Part shown: positions 26,420 to 37,155 of the stretch, in pieces | How positions within the stretch are numbered: the stretch's first letter is position 1 | How the letters are laid out: each line of letters begins with the position of its first letter | Source: Candidatus Gaiellasilicea maunaloa | Lineage (GTDB): Bacteria; Actinomycetota; Thermoleophilia; Gaiellales; Gaiellaceae | Direction: 5' to 3' | DNA: 41,468 nucleotides | Assembly (NCBI GenBank): GCA_024330215.1 | Contig: JANDLU010000024.1 | Coordinates: 1-41,468 of the forward strand | Made by a program: the position numbers and the translations under genes | The notes under the pieces: model-generated | What the model saw: the letters and a program-made list of their open reading frames with translations, nothing else | What the model was told of the DNA's origin: nothing | The model's database searches: none

Positions 26420-26725
26420 TTAGGCAACCCAGCGCGCGTCGGCGAGCTGGTCGCTGTAATGCCCGGTCGCGAGGTACGCACGGAGACGCCGGCCCTCGGC
26501 GAGCGGCCGTATCTTCGCGACAGCCTTGGCCGGCGTGTCGGCCTCCGTCGCATAGACCTGCCGGTAGTCGGGTGCGTCCGGATCGGCATCCGGATCGGTT
26601 GCGAACACGAGGAAACCGCGGCGGCGGATTCGCCGGTTGTTGACCTCGTCGACTCGCGCGCGCTCTACCTCGAGCTCGCGCGCCCAGGCCGCGAGGTCGA
26701 TCTGCTCTCCCGGTTCAGTCGCCAT
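26420..26725 (-). CDS. Unidentified 101-aa protein at the end of the Res/Mod operon
   Basis: I do not recognise this family. The start ATG at 26725 overlaps the res stop by 11 nt, so translation is probably coupled. It is hydrophilic, with a helical, charged first half (LAAWARELEVERARVDEVNN) and an acidic turn (TDPDADPDAPD); GFLVFATDPDAD and YLATGHYSDQL suggest a small alpha/beta fold. No metal or catalytic motif is evident. Context suggests an accessory role with the restriction enzyme. Confidence 0.7.
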   Translation of the reverse strand: MATEPGEQIDLAAWARELEVERARVDEVNNRRIRRRGFLVFATDPDADPDAPDYRQVYATEADTPAKAVAKIRPLAEGRRLRAYLATGHYSDQLADARWVA

Positions 26726-29291
26726 CTTCAAGAGTGTCCGGATCACCTTCCCGCGCGTCAAGGTACCGACACAGAGTTGACACACTTTCGCCGGTGAATT
26801 GATCGAAAGCGGCCTGCGGCACCTTCCGATACGACCACGAACGGCCCGACAGCCGGCTCGCGTCGCGGCACCAGCGGCGCGCGCGCCGATCCTTCAGAGC
26901 AACGTCCAGATCCTCCATGCCCTTCGTCTCCAGCACGAGGCAAGTGTCGTCCTTCAGTTGGACTACGAAGTCGGGGTAGTAGTAGCGCAGCGCGCCCGAG
27001 CGCGAGATGTACTCGAGCGCGAACCGGCTGTTCAATGTCAGCTTGGCGAAGGCCGCGACATCGGTCGCGCGATCGAGGAACCCCGCGAATCGCTGCTCGA
27101 GCGAGTTGTCGACCGGCGTCAGGTTGAAGATCGTCCGCTTGGCATCCAGGGTGGCGCGAGACCACGGGAACGCCGGCGTCTCGGAGAGCCGGACCGCGCT
27201 CTCGGTGATCGTCGCCTCGCGCTCCTCGATCGCGAGCTCGCGGATCGCCCTCTGGAACGCGCCGATCACGAGCTGCTGCGCGTCGTTCTCGGCCAGCCTT
27301 CTCAGAACGATCTTGTCGGCGAGGTCGACCGACCGATCGAAGACGCGGTTGGCCAGGTAGTCGCGAACGAGCGGAGCCAGCGTGGCGAACGATCCCGCCA
27401 GCCCGCCCACCCCGCCGGCCTTGGCGACGCTCTGCGTGTACCAGGTCAGCACACCCGATGGGTCCTCCGGGTAGGGCACGAGGAACCGGTCCCGCTCGAC
27501 CTCGACCTTGTCGATCAGGTGCATTCCTCGGTAGTGGATGTACTCGTCCGGGGCGACGTCAGGGACGGCGAGTGGGTTCGGCGCGTCGGCCACGTCCTCG
27601 GCCTTCAGGCGCGCGAGCGGCGAGTCAGCGCGCGCCAGCGTCCAGGTGAGCTGCGGGATCGAGATGTCGTAGGCCCGCTTCGACTCGTCGGCGAAGATCG
27701 TGACCGCACCCGGCTCGATCTTGTCCGCATCCTCCCGCTCGACCACGAGACCGCCGTCGAGCTGGGCGCTCCACAGATCGCGAAAGGCGTCGTGCTCGAT
27801 CACGACGACGCGCTCGTCGAAGCCGGAGCCGGGCGGCGTCATCCGTCGGAGGCCGCGTCCGAGCGCCTGCTCGGGGAGGATCTTCGCCTTCGCTGTGAGG
27901 CTCCGGAGCGTCACGACCACGCAGGCGTTGCGGACGTCCCAGCCCTCGCGGAGCATCAGCACGCTGACGATGCAGCGGACGTTCGAGTCCGGCCCGTCGA
28001 TCTCCCGTGCCGCCCTGCGCGCGATGTCGAGATCCGCCTTCGTGATCTCGCCCGCCTGGTTCGTGTGGATCACGAGCAGCCGATCGCCGGCGAAGTCGGA
28101 TACCTGCTTGAGGTAGTCGCCGACCTCGTCGGCCGCCTGCGTGTTCTCGCACATGACGAACAGCACCGGCCGTTTCCCGGACGGCGACAGCGTCTCGTGG
28201 AACTTCCGCCAGCGGCCGACGGCCACGTCCAGCCACTGCCGGTAGCGCTGCGCGGCCGAGTCGCCTAGCTCGACCGAGGCGCCGGTGACCTCGCCGATCA
28301 GAGGCGTCTTCACGATCCCGTCGTCCACCGCCTGCTTGAGCGGGTAGTCGACGACGACGTGCCGGAAGATCCGGCCGTCCTGGTACTTCGGCGTCGCCGA
28401 GAAGTCGAGCTGGGAGACCACGCCCCCGCCCCGTTCCGACAGCGTTGCGTGCAGCCGCTCGATCGTCTCGTTCCACTTCAGCTTCTCCGACCAGACGTGG
28501 TGGGCCTCGTCGTTGACGACGAGCAGCCGGTCGTGAGCCGCGATCCGGTCGAAGAGCTCCTCGGCGGATGCAGCATCCACGTCCCTGTTCACGCGCGGCC
28601 CCAGCATCGCCTCGACGGGGTTCGGCGCCGCGCCGCCCTTCCTCGCCGACGCCTCGTAGAGCCGGTGCACGTTCGTCAGGTAGAGGACGCCCCGCGTCGT
28701 CACGGGCGCCGGATCGTCCTGGAGCAGGACGGTCAGATCCCAGTCCTCCTCCCACTCCGGCGGCACGAGCGGGTCGTGCCGGAAGGTGGCGCAGTCGCCG
28801 AAGTCGACCTTCAGGCGCTCGAACACGATCACGTTGGGAGCGATCAGCAGGAACGCCGTTGCGAGCGGCGATTCTGGCTCGAAGAGCTTGTGGAAGTACG
28901 ACCAGACGATGCACAGGCTCATCGCCATCGTCTTGCCGGAGCCCGTCGCCATCTTGAAGGCGAGCCGTGGCCGCTTCGTCTCGGCCGGATCGATCAGGAT
29001 CCCTTGCGTCGCGTAGTCGAGCAGGTCGCGAAACGAACGGACACGCTCGATCTCGGTCAGGTAGATGAACGTCTCGACGGCCTCGCGCTGGCAGAAGTAG
29101 AAGCGGAACGGCAGCCCGTCCGCGCGCCGGTGCTCGTCGTCGAACCAGAAGCCGAGGAGGCGCCTCGTCGTCGGGCTCGCGCCGGAATAGCCGTTCGCCC
29201 TCCAGGCGTTGACGGCGGCGCGGACGCCGTCGACGAGGTGCGTCCCGTCGCTCGCCGCGCGGCGCTCGGGAACCTCGTAGGGATCGCTCAC
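26715..29291 (-). CDS. Type III-like restriction enzyme Res subunit (helicase-nuclease)
   Basis: This 858-aa protein is a superfamily 2 helicase fused to a nuclease. It has Walker A ATGSGKT (115-121), DEAH (261-264), SATPKYQDGR (motif III), then RCIVSVLMLREGWDVRN and QALGRGLRR as motifs V and VI. At the C-terminus, a PD-x13-ExK nuclease site is visible: Asp774 in YYYPDFVV, Glu788 and Lys790 in LETKG. This matches Type III Res. GTG at 29291 overlaps the mod stop (GTGA); a much longer in-frame reading would run into mod. The first 110 residues lack the usual Q-motif spacing but look intact. Confidence 0.93.
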   Translation of the reverse strand: MSDPYEVPERRAASDGTHLVDGVRAAVNAWRANGYSGASPTTRRLLGFWFDDEHRRADGLPFRFYFCQREAVETFIYLTEIERVRSFRDLLDYATQGILIDPAETKRPRLAFKMATGSGKTMAMSLCIVWSYFHKLFEPESPLATAFLLIAPNVIVFERLKVDFGDCATFRHDPLVPPEWEEDWDLTVLLQDDPAPVTTRGVLYLTNVHRLYEASARKGGAAPNPVEAMLGPRVNRDVDAASAEELFDRIAAHDRLLVVNDEAHHVWSEKLKWNETIERLHATLSERGGGVVSQLDFSATPKYQDGRIFRHVVVDYPLKQAVDDGIVKTPLIGEVTGASVELGDSAAQRYRQWLDVAVGRWRKFHETLSPSGKRPVLFVMCENTQAADEVGDYLKQVSDFAGDRLLVIHTNQAGEITKADLDIARRAAREIDGPDSNVRCIVSVLMLREGWDVRNACVVVTLRSLTAKAKILPEQALGRGLRRMTPPGSGFDERVVVIEHDAFRDLWSAQLDGGLVVEREDADKIEPGAVTIFADESKRAYDISIPQLTWTLARADSPLARLKAEDVADAPNPLAVPDVAPDEYIHYRGMHLIDKVEVERDRFLVPYPEDPSGVLTWYTQSVAKAGGVGGLAGSFATLAPLVRDYLANRVFDRSVDLADKIVLRRLAENDAQQLVIGAFQRAIRELAIEEREATITESAVRLSETPAFPWSRATLDAKRTIFNLTPVDNSLEQRFAGFLDRATDVAAFAKLTLNSRFALEYISRSGALRYYYPDFVVQLKDDTCLVLETKGMEDLDVALKDRRARRWCRDASRLSGRSWSYRKVPQAAFDQFTGESVSTLCRYLDAREGDPDTLEDGD

Positions 29292-31123
29292 TTGATCGTG
29301 ACTTCGGCGAGCTTCGTCGTGTCGTTCCCGAAGATGTCGATCACCTTGACGACGATCGCGTAGCGGCCCGCCGCGGGGTACTCGTGCCAGCCGCTCTCGG
29401 TGGCGAGCGCCGGCTCCGCGCGCGTGCGGTAGGCCTGCCACTGGTTGTGGAAGACGCCGTCGCGGTGGTCGAAGTCGATCGACCAGTAGTCGATCAGGTC
29501 GGCGTAGCGGGTGATCCGCTCGCGCACTGCCGTCGGGATCAAATCCTCGCTCGGGATCGCGAAGTCCTTCAGCACGACCTTCGCTTCGAGCCCCTGCCGC
29601 CGCACGTCCAGATCGAGGTGCGCGAGCTCGAAGAAGCGGATCGCGTCGGCGTCCTGCACCTGCCGCTCCATCACCTCGCGCGGGATCTGGAGCGGGCGCA
29701 GGTCGAGGCCGCGGCGACGCGCGCGCTCGCCGATCGTGTCGTGGAGGCCCATCTCCCACTCCCAGCCGAGCAGGTCGCACGACTCGATCCCGTTGTCGGC
29801 GAGCTCGTCCATTACCTCCTCGGCCTCGTCGATCGTCACCGGCGCATCGGTCGCGCCGACGTGCACCATTCGACCCGCCTTCCGTCCGTGCAGGTGCTGG
29901 AACCCCTCGACCGGCTCGGCACGGTAGAAGGCGAGGATCGTGTCGAGGTAGCCGCGCAGGGCGCCGTTGCCCGTGTCCTGCCGCCAGCGCTGGCGCTCGT
30001 AGGCGCCGAGGTTCTTGATCTCGAACGGCCGGCAGTCGGGGATGTTGAGGAGGCGCTTGCGCGTGGTGTGGATGGCGAAGCGGCCGAGGTCGCAGGCGAT
30101 CCAACGGCGCCCGAGCTTCTCGGCGACCGCCGCGGTCGTACCAGAGCCGACAAAGAAGTCAGCGACAAGATCGCCCTCATTTGACGATGCCTTGATGGCC
30201 CGCTCAAGAAGGCGCTCGGGTTTCTGCGTCTTGTACTCAGTACGTTCGTGCGCCGACTGATTCACGATGTCGATCTTCCAATAGTCGTGCGGCGCGAAGC
30301 CCTTTCCGAGGTACTCACGCACGACGAGATGAGGATGTGTGATCTCCCACTCAGGGTCAACATCCTTCGCGGACCGGATAGGACTCCCGGTAATTCCGCG
30401 TCCCGAGAGGCGGTAGTAGCCAACCTCGTCCTGGTGTTTGTACTTCTTCACCGTCGCCTCCGAATAGGGCTCCAGCACACCCTCGACATCCCAGTTGAAG
30501 ACCTGCCGATCTGGGTTCTTCGAGTAGACCAACAGGTCGTGATGCTTTCGATTCCACATCCGCTTGGAGAACTGTCGCGTCGAGTAGCACCACACGACGT
30601 TGTTCATAAAGTTGGATGACCCAAATATTTCGTCCAGCATCAACTTCACGTAGTGGCACATCCGCCAATCGAGGTGGACGTAGATCGTTCCGTCGTCCGC
30701 CAGGAGCTCGCGCAACAGAGTAAGCCGCTCGTAGATCATCGAGAGGTAGCTGTCGACTCCGCGTCCCCATGTGTCGCGATACGCGTACTCCTCAAGGATT
30801 GACGGCTCCTTGAGGATGTCGGTGTCCAAATCTCCGACGCGCACACTCACTGAGAAGTCGTCGCCTGTAGCGAATGGCGGGTCGATGTAGATCAGCTTGA
30901 TCTGCCCCGCGAACTCCTTCAGCAGGCTGCTCATCACGAGCTTGTTGTCGCCCCAGATGAGCTGGTTCCGCCAGGTCTGGTCCTGCTCCCCGGCGCCGAG
31001 GAGCGAGCCCTCGTCGCGCTGGCGGGTCGCTCGCGACTCGTTGATCGTCTCCACGGTCTGGAAGGGCAGGCTGACCCGCTCGACTTGCGTCGGCTTCCCG
31101 TCCCACTCGAGGCGCACGCTCAT
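29288..31123 (-). CDS. Type III-like DNA adenine methyltransferase Mod subunit
   Basis: This 611-aa methyltransferase has motif order IV then I, the beta class: IYIDPPF (Asp81-Phe84) and later FFVGSGTTAAVAEKLG (324-330) for AdoMet. Between them (84-324) lies the target recognition domain. It precedes res with a 4-nt overlap and the pair forms one operon, modifying and, with Res, cutting unmodified DNA. Motif IV is DPPF rather than DPPY. A long C-terminal domain (residues 380-611) is also present. The middle is less GC-rich than the ends. Confidence 0.93.
   Translation of the reverse strand: MSVRLEWDGKPTQVERVSLPFQTVETINESRATRQRDEGSLLGAGEQDQTWRNQLIWGDNKLVMSSLLKEFAGQIKLIYIDPPFATGDDFSVSVRVGDLDTDILKEPSILEEYAYRDTWGRGVDSYLSMIYERLTLLRELLADDGTIYVHLDWRMCHYVKLMLDEIFGSSNFMNNVVWCYSTRQFSKRMWNRKHHDLLVYSKNPDRQVFNWDVEGVLEPYSEATVKKYKHQDEVGYYRLSGRGITGSPIRSAKDVDPEWEITHPHLVVREYLGKGFAPHDYWKIDIVNQSAHERTEYKTQKPERLLERAIKASSNEGDLVADFFVGSGTTAAVAEKLGRRWIACDLGRFAIHTTRKRLLNIPDCRPFEIKNLGAYERQRWRQDTGNGALRGYLDTILAFYRAEPVEGFQHLHGRKAGRMVHVGATDAPVTIDEAEEVMDELADNGIESCDLLGWEWEMGLHDTIGERARRRGLDLRPLQIPREVMERQVQDADAIRFFELAHLDLDVRRQGLEAKVVLKDFAIPSEDLIPTAVRERITRYADLIDYWSIDFDHRDGVFHNQWQAYRTRAEPALATESGWHEYPAAGRYAIVVKVIDIFGNDTTKLAEVTIK
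30170..30872 (-). other. Lower-GC target-recognition segment of mod
   Basis: By hand count, 30181-30900 is about 55-56% GC, dropping to about 42% at 30601-30660, while flanking coding DNA is about 65-75%. The limits coincide with the DPPF and FVGSGTT motifs, so the change covers exactly the specificity domain. This is what recombinational replacement of a Type III target recognition domain would leave. Confidence 0.65.
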
Positions 31124-31130
31124 GCGGCGA

Positions 31131-31685
31131 TTATCGCGGCGCGCGCGGACGACCCTCGGGCGGCTCCTCCCACACCGCCTCTAGCCCGGTCACCTCGAAG
31201 GTCGAGTCGGGTCTGAGAGCATCCAGGAAGACCGCGAGCGCGGTCCCTCCATTCGCGGCCGAAGGCGCGAGGATTGCCTCGACGCTGATCGAGTGCGCCG
31301 CGACTCCGATCGCCTGACACGCACTCAGGTCGTCGCTTCGAAGCTCGCGATCGCCGAGGCCGATCGTGCGGCGAGCCTCGTCGCCGCGAAGGTCGAGAAC
31401 CGCGAGCAGATCCACCCGGAGCCGGTAGAGCTCGCGGGGCAGGAAGCCCTGAGCCGCGACGCCCTGCCGGCGGGCCAGTCGGTGAAACTCATCGACGACG
31501 GTCTGGACGTCGAGACCGCAGTAGACGACTGCGAAGCTGTCGGGTGGATTCCAGCGTCCACCGAAGATCCGGGCGCCACGACCCGACCGCGCCTCGCGCC
31601 CCGCAGCGACGTGTCGGAAAACCTCTCCACGAAAGTGCCCGACGCCGAGCTCGTCGATGGCCGCGACGAGCGACGGGAGCGACAC
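31131..31685 (-). CDS. RES-domain toxin (NAD-consuming family)
   Basis: This 184-aa protein has the RES fold: Arg24 (FRHV), GGRWNPP with Arg44, Tyr55, Glu66 in VVDEFHRLAR, and Ser142 in APSAANGG. These match the Arg-Glu-Ser residues for which the domain is named. Characterised RES toxins (MbcT-like) break down NAD+. GTG at 31685 follows the antitoxin stop by 3 nt, so the pair is coupled. It ends 7 nt before mod, in the same direction, so toxin, antitoxin, mod and res could share a transcript. Confidence 0.88.
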   Translation of the reverse strand: MSLPSLVAAIDELGVGHFRGEVFRHVAAGREARSGRGARIFGGRWNPPDSFAVVYCGLDVQTVVDEFHRLARRQGVAAQGFLPRELYRLRVDLLAVLDLRGDEARRTIGLGDRELRSDDLSACQAIGVAAHSISVEAILAPSAANGGTALAVFLDALRPDSTFEVTGLEAVWEEPPEGRPRAPR

Positions 31686-31688
31686 GGG

Positions 31689-32021
31689 CTAGACGAAGAC
31701 GCCGTCGGCCATCGCGTCGATCGCGCCGAGGACAGGCCTGAAGTTTCCGCCACGCAGGAGATCAACCGGCTTGTGATGGTCGAGCGATGGGTTCGGCGTA
31801 AAGAGCCAGTCGTGCGCAACTCGCGGTCTCAGGGTTTCCGAAAGCAGGTCCAGCACGGCGATGAGCTCCAGCAGGCGCTCGCGGGCGTCTGGTCGCGGTG
31901 CAGCAGACTCGTTCAGCCAGCGCGCCACCGTTCTCGGGCTCGTTTCGAGTACGCGTGCGAGATCGCCGCCGTCGAGCTCCACTCGCATCGCCGCCTGCTC
32001 CAGGCGCTCCGTAATGGTCAC
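31689..32021 (-). CDS. Xre/MbcA/ParS-like antitoxin
   Basis: This 110-aa protein has an N-terminal helix-turn-helix-like part (ARVLETSPRTVARWL) and the MbcA/ParS/Xre toxin-binding domain at the end (FTPNPSLDHHKPVDLLRGGN, then AIDAMADGVFV). The GTG at 32021 has AGGAGG 6 nt upstream and is preferred to a distal in-frame start. It should neutralise the RES toxin and repress its own promoter. Only 49 nt separate it from the divergent gene at 32071. Confidence 0.88.
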   Translation of the reverse strand: MTITERLEQAAMRVELDGGDLARVLETSPRTVARWLNESAAPRPDARERLLELIAVLDLLSETLRPRVAHDWLFTPNPSLDHHKPVDLLRGGNFRPVLGAIDAMADGVFV

Positions 32022-32070
32022 GTTCCGCCTCCTCTTTGTCGTCCGGCCGCCGCCTGTACTGTCAGACACT
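32022..32070. promoter_or_regulatory. Compact divergent promoter region
   Basis: This 49-nt gap holds the antitoxin ribosome binding site (32028-32033) and, for the plus strand, a weak TTGTCG (32036) and TACTGT (32057) pair with 15-nt spacing. The predicted plus-strand transcript start falls at or next to the ATG at 32071, consistent with a leaderless message. The antitoxin probably regulates both directions. Confidence 0.4.
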
Positions 32071-33289
32071 ATGGCACGACTGGTGGATGTCACGGGATTC
32101 CTTCCGCGCGTCACTGTGCGCGATGGCCGCGCGATCGAGCAGGCACTTGCGGGACATACGCTCTTCCAGCCCGGCGTCGAGCTCGCTGGGGCCGTCGTGG
32201 AGGCGTCGTTCGCCTATGGCGACCCACCTCTGCTTCGACGGCTCGCGGATAAGGGCGTTCCGCGCCTGATCGACCCGCAGACACTGCGGTTCAGCACCGA
32301 CGCCTACCTCGAGGTCGAGGCGATCGCAGGGCTTCCGTACGCCCCGTCAGCGCCCTTCTCGGCGGAGTCGTTGAGAGGCGATGCGGGCGACGAACTCGTC
32401 GAAGGCGTTCTCCGTTTCGAGGACAACCACGGGGCGACGGACTATCTCTCGCCGATGGTTCCCGTGCCCGACCGTGACCTCGAACGGTGGGTCGATGCGC
32501 ACGAGTACGTCCTCCGAGCCGCGGCTCGCGCGAACGGCGCCCGCGACCTCCCGCGTAAGCCGCTCATCGCATCGCTCTCGCCAGGTAACAAGGCGATGCG
32601 CGACCCCGGCCTGCTGATACGACGCTCTCAGCGACCTTCCGCTCGACGGCGTCTACGTTCAGCCGCTCTTGCTCTCGCCGACGCGCGACAGAGTCGACAA
32701 GCCAGTTGCGTACGTCCGCTTCCTCCTGGCTGCCCAGCGGATCGGGATTCCGGTGCTCGCCGGGCGGGTGGGCGCATTCGGCCTGATCCTCGAAGCGCTG
32801 GGAATCGCGATGTTCGACTCTGGACTTGGTCAGGCAGAGGGGTTCAACCTCGCTTCCCTCAACCGGCGTAAGACGGTGCGAGGCGATTCATCGAGTGCTC
32901 CCCAGGGGAGCCGCCGGATCTACCTGCGACCGCTCAAGACCACGCTTCCGAGTGGGATGGTCGAGAGAATCCTCGGTGAGCGCGGGCTTCGCTCGAGCTT
33001 CGCGTGCGCGCTCGAGTGCTGTCGCTGGCGGGATCAACAGGATCTCGGTGAACGCTGCCGCGAGCACTACCTGCGCGTACGGCAGGACGAGGTTGCTCAA
33101 GTCGGACGCCAGCCAACCAGCTCAATGCGGCTCTCAGACCTCCACAACGATCTAACGGAGGCGCGTGAGCTCGCCCTGGTGGTCGTACGGACGCTTCGAC
33201 ACCGAGGTCACGAACCTCCGCGCTTCGATCACCTGGATCGCTGGCTCGCCGTGATCGCGACAGTGACCGAGTTGGCTGCCGCTGCCTGA
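32071..33289 (+). pseudogene. Frameshifted gene of unknown function
   Basis: The first frame runs from ATG 32071 (MARLVDVTGFLPRVTVRD) to about LLI at 32619, and the second continues from there as DALSDLPLDGVYVQPL and ends at 33289. Removing the A at 32619 restores LLIDALSDLPLD and one continuous reading frame of about 405 codons. The region after the break, PVLAGRVGAFGLILEALGI, looks like a conserved alpha/beta barrel-like core. I do not recognise the family. It may be a recent inactivation or a sequencing error. It diverges from the antitoxin gene within the island. Confidence 0.75.
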
Positions 33290-35788: not shown

Positions 35789-35815
35789 GACCGCGCCGCT
35801 ACCGGAGGTGAATCG

Positions 35816-36892
35816 ATGTCGAAGACGCTCGTGATGGTCGGGACCCGCAAGGGCTGCTTCCTGCTCGAGAGCGACGAGCAGCGCCGCGACTGGGAACTTC
35901 GCGGTCCCTTCTGCGAAGGGTGGCCGATCTACCACGCCATCCACGACGCCGAGACCGGCGCGATCTACGCGGCCGGCGCGAGCGAATGGCACGGCGCGAG
36001 CATCTGGCGCAGCCTCGATCGCGGCGAGACCTGGGCGCAGTCGAGCGAGGGGCTGGAATACAGCGACTCCGGGCTCAAGCTCTCGAAGGTCTCGGGCCTG
36101 ACTGCAGCTCACGGCCGGCTCTTCGCCGGGGCGGAGATGCCCGGCATCTTCGAGAGCGGAGACGGCGGCCAGACGTGGAAGCTCCTGAGCACGCTCGAGG
36201 GCCAGCCGGGCAGCGAGTCGTGGAACGATCCGGCGAACCAGCCGCCGGGACACCTCGGCATCCCCGCGATCCTGCCGCATCCCGACGACCCGTCCCGCTA
36301 CTGGGCGATCGTCCAGGGCGAGGGCATCTTCGAGACGACGGACGACGGCACCTCCTGGACGCCCCGGAACCGGGGGCTGCGTGCGGACTGGCCGATCGAG
36401 AATCCCGAGGTCGGCTACTGCGTCCACAAGCTCGTGATGTCGCCGGTCGACAACGACCGGCTCTACCAGCAGAACCACGTCGGCATGCATCGCAGCGACG
36501 ACGCCGGCGTGTCGTGGACGGAGATCACCGAGGGCCTGCCGACGGAGTTCGGCTTCGCGGCCGGCGCGCATCCGCACGATCGCGACACGTTCTACGTGAT
36601 CCCGCTCGACCCCGGCCACGGACGCTGTATGCCCGAGGGTCGCGCGGCGGTGTGGCGGACGTCCGATGCGGGCTCGAGCTGGCAGCGGCTCGACGACGGC
36701 CTTCCCCAGGAGGACGCGCACGTGGGCGTCCTGCGCGAGGGAATGGCGATCGATGGGCACGAGGTGCCGGGCGTGTACTTCGGCACGAGCACGGGCCAGC
36801 TCTTCGCGAGCGCCGACGAGGGCAGGAGCTGGAGTGAGATCGCGAGCTACCTGCCGGGCATCGCCTCGGTCGAGGTCGCGATCGTCGACTGA
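35816..36892 (+). CDS. Asp-box (BNR) beta-propeller protein
   Basis: This 358-aa protein has six Asp-box repeats, S/T-x-D-x-G-x-S/T-W: SLDRGETW, SGDGGQTW, TTDDGTSW, SDDAGVSW, TSDAGSSW and SADEGRSW. These cap blades of a sialidase-like propeller. No signal peptide is seen, so it may be cytoplasmic; sialidase catalytic residues (the arginine triad) are not evident. It has a good ribosome binding site (GGAGG, 7 nt before the ATG). Its stop shares a base with the next gene start, a MoaD/ThiS-like protein, so the two are coupled. Confidence 0.85.
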   Translation: MSKTLVMVGTRKGCFLLESDEQRRDWELRGPFCEGWPIYHAIHDAETGAIYAAGASEWHGASIWRSLDRGETWAQSSEGLEYSDSGLKLSKVSGLTAAHGRLFAGAEMPGIFESGDGGQTWKLLSTLEGQPGSESWNDPANQPPGHLGIPAILPHPDDPSRYWAIVQGEGIFETTDDGTSWTPRNRGLRADWPIENPEVGYCVHKLVMSPVDNDRLYQQNHVGMHRSDDAGVSWTEITEGLPTEFGFAAGAHPHDRDTFYVIPLDPGHGRCMPEGRAAVWRTSDAGSSWQRLDDGLPQEDAHVGVLREGMAIDGHEVPGVYFGTSTGQLFASADEGRSWSEIASYLPGIASVEVAIVD

Positions 36893-37155
36893 TGGCTGAG
36901 CTCTATCTCCCCTCGACGCTGCGGCCGCTCTTCGCGGGGCTGCCGCGCCACCTCGAGCTCGACGCGTCGAGCGTCGACGAGGCGCTCGACCGCCTGGAGG
37001 AGCGCTGGCCAGGGCTGCGGGACCGGCTCTGCGAGCCTGGACCGGTCCTGCGCCGGCATATCCACGTCTACGTCGACCGCGAGCGCGCGGCGCTGGAGAC
37101 TGCGCTCGAGGCGCGCTCGCGGGTCGACGTGATCGCCGCGATCAGCGGCGGCTGA
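36892..37155 (+). CDS. MoaD/ThiS-like ubiquitin-fold protein
   Basis: This 87-aa protein has the size, fold pattern and C-terminal Gly-Gly (DVIAAISGG, residues 86-87) of MoaD/ThiS sulfur carriers, whose terminal carboxylate is adenylated and thiocarboxylated. VDEALDRLEERWPGLRDRL is the conserved helix; HIHVYVDRE is the central strand. No ThiF/MoeB activator or molybdopterin/thiazole gene is near. The TGATG overlap with the propeller gene suggests they act together. Confidence 0.85.
   Translation: MAELYLPSTLRPLFAGLPRHLELDASSVDEALDRLEERWPGLRDRLCEPGPVLRRHIHVYVDRERAALETALEARSRVDVIAAISGG

Follow-up and report, generated by a model that had tools for sequence, protein, structure and literature searches.

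An Asp-box beta-propeller and a ubiquitin-like protein ending in Gly-Gly form a conserved gene pair and a candidate sulfur carrier-partner system

The stretch of DNA analysed here, called the window throughout, comprises 41,468 nucleotides and is contig C117 of a 3.85-Mb assembly that is 97% complete. Two genes on its plus strand, one for a beta-propeller and one for a small ubiquitin-like protein (Ubl), are the subject of this report (Table 1). An earlier note, made from the letters of the window, had described an Asp-box propeller coupled to a MoaD/ThiS-like protein, a base shared by the two genes in a TGATG, and a Gly-Gly end on the small protein. All three observations are borne out. Both open reading frames are in place and exceed the Pfam cut-offs, the propeller with 55.7 bits for Sortilin-Vps10 (cut-off 33) and 30.3 bits for BNR/Asp-box (cut-off 27), and the Ubl with 26.3 bits for ThiS (PF02597; curated cut-off 22.5); the shared base and the two terminal glycine codons are likewise present. 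The overlap suggests that translation of the two genes is coupled. NCBIfam gave sub-threshold matches only, to the F510_1955 glycosylhydrolase model for the propeller and to SAMP1 for the Ubl. PADLOC matched neither protein, and a role of the pair in defence was set aside on this ground; the pair was also unmatched in the viral contigs searched. The minus strand of the window further carries a RES-domain protein (31131–32114) with an Xre/MbcA/ParS-type antitoxin upstream, probably a toxin-antitoxin pair, and a type III-like DNA methyltransferase followed by a helicase-like ORF (26715–31123), probably a type III restriction-modification system.

Table 1. Features of the propeller-Ubl gene pair, in positions of the window.
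Feature	Positions	Strand	Remarks
Likely ribosome-binding site of the propeller gene, GGAGGTG	35804–35810	+	Read directly; 5 nt 5' of the ATG at 35816
Asp-box (BNR) seven-bladed beta-propeller, 358 aa, without signal peptide	35816–36892	+	Pfam, 3b7f, AlphaFold2 model
K12 codon	35849–35851	+	Conserved in 107 of 108 relatives; lies in the first loop 2-3, probably on the top face
Q219-N220-H221 codons	36470–36478	+	Q219 and H221 present in all 108 relatives but in no outgroup Asp-box propeller
R307 codon	36734–36736	+	Kept in 108 of 108 relatives
TGATG, overlap of propeller stop and Ubl start by one base (36892)	36890–36894	+	
ThiS/MoaD-fold ubiquitin-like protein, 87 aa, probable sulfur carrier, ends in ISGG	36892–37155	+	Pfam ThiS, CysO profile match
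GGC GGC, last two sense codons of the Ubl (C-terminal Gly-Gly)	37147–37152	+	

The only close solved relative of the propeller is 3b7f (Reut_B4987 of Ralstonia eutropha), found at E = 4e-118 with the family profile and at E = 2e-60 with the window protein alone. It is also the best fold match of an AlphaFold2 model of the window propeller (pLDDT 86; TM 0.88/0.86, 36% identity). Its function is listed as 'Not known' (PMC2716378). The invariant or near-invariant positions other than glycines in 108 sequences include T10, K12, W136, H204, Q219, H221, R226, F245, P263 and R307, plus Asp-box residues. Acidic positions conserved above 90% in these sequences are the Asp-box aspartates 68, 116, 176, 229 and 334, and a mixed D/E/G position, 274, reaches 90%. 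Twelve outgroup propellers without a Ubl keep W136, H204 and the Asp-boxes; Q219, H221 and the FGF motif occur in none of them, and K12 and R307 in two each. When residues are placed by loop position on the predicted strands, loop 2-3 would hold K12 and Q219/H221, and inner strands would begin at or close to H204, F245 and R307, which puts all of these residues on the top face. This was the functional face of the Asp-box propellers known in 2009, and its loop 2-3 bears the catalytic residues of glycosidases; the Asp-boxes are structural and lie opposite the active-site face in Asp-box glycosidases (PMC2716378). No signal peptide was found, and in most relatives the propeller begins within ∼10 residues of the Met. 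The catalytic carboxylates of GH33 sialidases and GH74 xyloglucanases are not conserved, the near-invariant acids being the Asp-box aspartates. We rejected a sialidase on these two grounds; to judge from its sequence the propeller is probably a cytosolic protein, and it is unlikely to act as a sialidase or as any other two-carboxylate glycosidase.

For the Ubl, the closest solved match of the profile of pair Ubls is CysO of M. tuberculosis (3dwg, 6e-16), and SAMP1 structures are matched at 3e-9. The nearest NCBIfam model, NF041918 for SAMP1, scores 33.1 bits, which is below its equivalog cut-off of 60 bits. The idea of a carrier had been made to depend on conservation of the Gly-Gly in orthologues. 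We scored 87 pairs, excluding one pair cut by a contig end and entering the window's own pair, which is listed twice, once. The Gly-Gly is conserved in 86 of the 87, internal Gly-Gly of fusions included, so the idea stands on this point: it forms the exact end in 56, is followed by 1–25 residues in 18 and lies within an in-frame fusion in 12. The one pair without it, from Nonomuraea (L029, 4081–4392), has a Ubl ending in VLPALA and is the sole such case seen.

The genome survey for this gene pair that the earlier note had proposed covered 296 genomes across the phylum, presumably Actinomycetota since the g80 genomes group with Streptomyces on the propeller tree; 91 of them have a propeller match at 1e-20, and the flanks of 85 matches were read. 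A same-strand Ubl within ∼75 bp, in either gene order, accompanies 62 of the 75 strong (full-length) propellers versus none of the 10 weak, distant Asp-box ones (Fisher p ∼4e-7). At random, linkage would be expected in roughly 0.2%, assuming ∼4 ThiS-type genes in 3,500. Among relatives or copies whose propeller is at least 68% identical, the Ubl is directly downstream in 12 of 12. The propeller search matched 38 of 61 close relatives, a number that includes distant Asp-box propellers. Coverage of Proteobacteria was by plasmid records only. There the pair, with the Ubl first, is found on plasmids or secondary replicons of Pseudomonas aeruginosa, Mitsuaria and Burkholderia stagnalis and, by position, of other Burkholderia, Paraburkholderia and Cupriavidus; nine of ten plasmid-borne relatives of the Pseudomonas Ubl adjoin a propeller match, again judged by position. 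Three Rhodobacterales propellers have no adjoining Ubl that is annotated or found by profile. The propeller-Ubl pairing is real, old and beyond chance.

The strong propellers without an adjoining Ubl (13 of 75) belong to the Streptomyces group and to one other family, f46. These propellers, notably those of the Streptomyces group, still keep the invariant residues, and their genomes encode CysO and a threonine-synthase-linked Ubl elsewhere; it is possible that these propellers use a borrowed carrier. A dedicated orphan Ubl was sought in Streptomyces and in f46 and rejected, the best-scoring Ubls adjoining threonine synthase or lying near JAMM genes. A ThiS-type Ubl ending in AVAGG is present in Streptomyces-like genomes (L254–L261) and in family f46 (L248–L253); in those read in detail (L248, L253, L254, L256) it adjoins a threonine-synthase-like gene, with a groEL gene also near in L253, L254 and L256.

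When neighbours were clustered around the pair in 40 genomes, no other family recurred, the rest consisting of propeller shadow frames or of small sets peculiar to a lineage. Since nothing else is conserved beside the pair, the functional unit appears to be the two proteins, and a linked biosynthetic pathway was rejected on the same result. The ergothioneine genes egtB/egtD adjoin the propeller in one Rhodobacter plasmid only. Streptomyces propeller neighbours, read by eye, are a uracil-DNA glycosylase, a sugar-kinase-like and a lactonase-like protein and give no functional hint. As to the possibility that the pair is confined to one lineage and has unrelated neighbours, the second half holds and the first does not, the pair occurring in Actinomycetota, Pseudomonas and Burkholderia.

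The arrangement of the Ubl (after, before, fused or none), traced on a tree of 107 propellers, needs 10 changes versus 46 for shuffled labels; the state 'fused' needs 5 changes, two of them forced by starred branches, and 'none' needs 4. Although the arrangement changed about ten times on the tree, the linkage has mostly persisted through these changes of gene order. The 12 in-frame fusions have the layout Ubl...SGG-linker-propeller. Both domains are confirmed by Pfam in one of them (L081), and the junction is only a few residues in several, e.g., AISGG-SDDTAELLVGT. A C-terminal glycine must be free to be activated. In M. tuberculosis the fused MoaX is cut after its Gly-Gly, with Gly82 and Ser83 on either side of the cut, a step required for activity (PMC4326299), DRJAMM of Deinococcus cleaves MoaD-MoaE (PMC8832034), and JAB processing was proposed by Iyer and colleagues for fused ThiS/MoaD proteins generally (PMC1779556). 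Tails are also seen on CysO-type Ubls of Streptomyces (L267, L270–L273), which have two residues after the Gly-Gly (AVAGGMA, AVAGGMS) and are encoded near JAMM genes. The sequences suggest that tails may be routinely removed from CysO-type Ubls encoded near JAMM genes.

JAMM genes are found in 72 of 74 surveyed genomes that carry the propeller. In a sample of 198 genomes, at a stricter threshold, they are present in 55 of 57 carriers versus 69 of 141 others, a difference confounded by ancestry, and in all 22 genomes with a tailed or fused Ubl (22, 55 and 69 being hand counts). JAMM is missing from just two paired genomes of this sample, and in both the Ubl ends exactly in Gly-Gly. The search for E1-like partners, also suggested beforehand, found ThiF in 73 of the 74 genomes, mostly away from the pair; among the matches listed, only one of the 61 paired genomes has it at most 10 kb from the pair. 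A JAMM gene directly adjoins the ThiF gene in a number of surveyed genomes.

The absence of ThiF/MoeB or cofactor genes remarked upon in the earlier note is true of the locus, where none was recognised among the ORFs listed around the pair, but not of the genome. Its single ThiF match, a rhodanese-ThiF E1, is on contig C121. In the compact cluster there (L030, 4136–6981, minus) it is followed, in this order, by a CysO-like Ubl ending in AMAGGS, a PLP cysteine-synthase-like enzyme and a JAMM/Prok-JAB peptidase. Besides three ThiS-profile matches the genome has a fourth Ubl, adjoining a second propeller on contig C144, and hence two propeller-Ubl pairs (C117, C144). In the second pair (L032, 2808–4099, minus) the propeller is 42% identical to that of the window and the Ubl ends in AIAGG. 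Contig C123 encodes MoaD and MoaE fused in frame, with PPVSGG inside the chain (L031, 3913–4596, minus; Pfam ThiS 61.7, MoaE 135.5 bits). With both parts in one chain around this motif, the genome probably already processes a fused carrier. By its gene content, machinery suited to activating the Ubl is present elsewhere in the genome, and probably the means of exposing its Gly-Gly too. The mycobacterial MoeZR sulfurates MoaD1, MoaD2 and CysO, one E1 serving several carriers in trans (PMC3227635), and an Amycolatopsis 2-thiosugar synthase (BexX) borrows sulfur carriers, as cited in PMC11323500. Activation in trans is therefore realistic.

Taken together, we consider it on balance probable that the propeller has in the Ubl a dedicated sulfur carrier, which docks on it by its tail and shares the E1 and JAMM, acting in trans, with other carriers. 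Overlapping genes encode the two proteins side by side. Tailed and fused variants would be cut after the Gly-Gly by a peptidase, most likely the JAMM of the genome, following the MoaD-MoaE precedent. The shared rhodanese-ThiF, encoded elsewhere and present, would then adenylate the C-terminal glycine and convert it to a thiocarboxylate. To judge from conservation, the Gly-Gly tail would dock near K12, Q219, H221, F245 and R307, on the top face of the propeller or in its central channel, and there the sulfur would be handed to a small-molecule acceptor. The propeller would take the place of MoaE, ThiG or CysM in known systems. For this account count the Ubl linkage, the fusions, the Gly-Gly retention, the likeness to CysO and the rhodanese domain of the E1, which marks the sulfur-donating type; the family-specific invariant residues, largely absent from Ubl-less Asp-box propellers; and the MoaX and DRJAMM precedents, together with the MoaD-MoaE fusion of the genome itself and JAMM in all sampled genomes with tailed or fused Ubls; and ThiF and JAMM in nearly all of the 74 propeller carriers. 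Against it count the lack of a biosynthetic gene conserved beside the pair, the 13 of 75 propellers without Ubl and the Nonomuraea pair without Gly-Gly.

That the propeller is the protein the little carrier works with is very probable. A more specific version, a serious possibility a little short of probable, is that it is the sulfur-accepting enzyme of an undescribed pathway of Actinomycetota and Proteobacteria; the thiocarboxylate of the Ubl would enter the channel and its sulfur pass to a metabolite, and the single-chain forms of some lineages would need cutting after the Gly-Gly. The propeller had been proposed as a partner or a target for modification: linkage and fusions support functional coupling, and a role as partner or acceptor is more economical than modification. 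Of the uncharacterised conjugation or sulfur-transfer system that had been envisaged, a sulfur-transfer or conjugation partnership is probable; there is no need to postulate an entirely new conjugation system, since one E1 acting in trans on several carriers is known biology (PMC3227635). The simplest account of these sequences would be a carrier paired with an acceptor of a new kind.

The Ubl might instead be a protein modifier like SAMPs and the Ubls of T. kodakarensis, its Gly-Gly being joined to lysines of its targets; the propeller would then be one of these targets, an adaptor or a reader. We regard this as unlikely, though it stays in consideration because archaeal Ubls do both: those of T. 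kodakarensis serve sulfur transfer and conjugation (PMC11323500). The weak similarity to SAMP1 in score and structure profile fits conjugation, as do the adjoining JAMM and ThiF genes of several genomes and the frequent use of propellers as interaction platforms, but the Ubl falls short of the SAMP1 equivalog cut-off, E1, E2 and E3 are unlinked to the pair (among the matches listed, ThiF is less than 10 kb away in a single genome), and the E1 of the genome bears a rhodanese domain, a mark of sulfur donation. Still less probable is a non-catalytic pair, in which the Ubl would serve the propeller as a structural or regulatory subunit, its Gly-Gly being a fold or docking feature without chemistry. 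The 18 tails and 12 in-frame fusions would be harmless if the C-terminus were never activated, and one pair has lost the Gly-Gly; however, all other scored pairs retain it despite great divergence, CysO proteins encoded near JAMM genes are tailed as well, and processing of carrier fusions is known (PMC4326299, PMC8832034). A glycoside hydrolase with the Ubl as an unrelated hitch-hiker, in line with the database annotation (sialidase family/exo-alpha-sialidase) and a fold common to GH74 and sialidases, is very improbable given the missing signal peptide and the start of the propeller a few residues after the Met in most relatives, conserved acids that are structural Asp-box aspartates on the face opposite the active site (PMC2716378), and a Ubl linkage that outlasts rearrangement.

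Under the preferred reading, that of a sulfur carrier and its partner, a widespread and probably misnamed propeller family, annotated as sialidase and with one crystal structure without function, gains a functional lead in its ubiquitin-like sulfur carrier. If this is true, the few known thiocarboxylate acceptors are joined by a new type of protein, and a sulfur-containing product is implied. The natural fusions and tails predict JAMM cleavage after the Gly-Gly.

In the papers searched we found no description of a propeller-Ubl pair, the Ubl surveys among them mention no BNR or sialidase partner, and no Ubl link of 3b7f is reported. Bacterial Ubl-conjugation operons differ in having E1, E2 and JAB beside the Ubl, whereas no such conserved neighbour surrounds the pair in 40 genomes. 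The archaeal modifier SAMP1 shares the beta-grasp fold and the Gly-Gly end, but the Ubl scores 33 bits against the cut-off of 60. YCF48 and sortilin, peptide-binding Asp-box propellers, are of the same fold class, and the YCF48-D1 peptide and sortilin-neurotensin structures are among the fold matches; however, the resemblance is at the level of fold only, sortilin has ten blades, and neither has a Ubl. The protein of 3b7f is a member of the propeller family by full-length sequence and fold match. BexX, a ThiG relative, is an enzyme outside thiamine, molybdopterin and cysteine synthesis that uses ThiS/MoaD/CysO-type carriers activated by the E1 of the cell; its carriers are borrowed, whereas in the propeller-Ubl pair the gene for the carrier accompanies that for the partner. 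CysO-CysM-Mec, which makes cysteine from a thiocarboxylated carrier, includes the closest solved Ubl, and a trans-shared activating enzyme is known in MoeZR (PMC3227635); unlike CysM, the partner here is not a PLP enzyme, and the genome has its separate CysO-CysM-JAMM-E1 cluster. By Pfam, profile and fold match the partner is an Asp-box propeller without homology to MoaE, ThiG or CysM, and it shows the stable linkage or fusion to its Ubl (62 of 75 linked, 12 fusions) that marks a carrier and its acceptor. Compared with MoaD-MoaE, the MPT synthase (fused as MoaX of M. tuberculosis and DR2607 of Deinococcus), the pair has a propeller in place of MoaE and no molybdopterin genes alongside, and cleavage is here a prediction; what the two have in common is a small ThiS-fold Gly-Gly carrier that adjoins a larger partner or is fused to its N-terminus, with an internal Gly-Gly in the fusions and a JAMM peptidase available.
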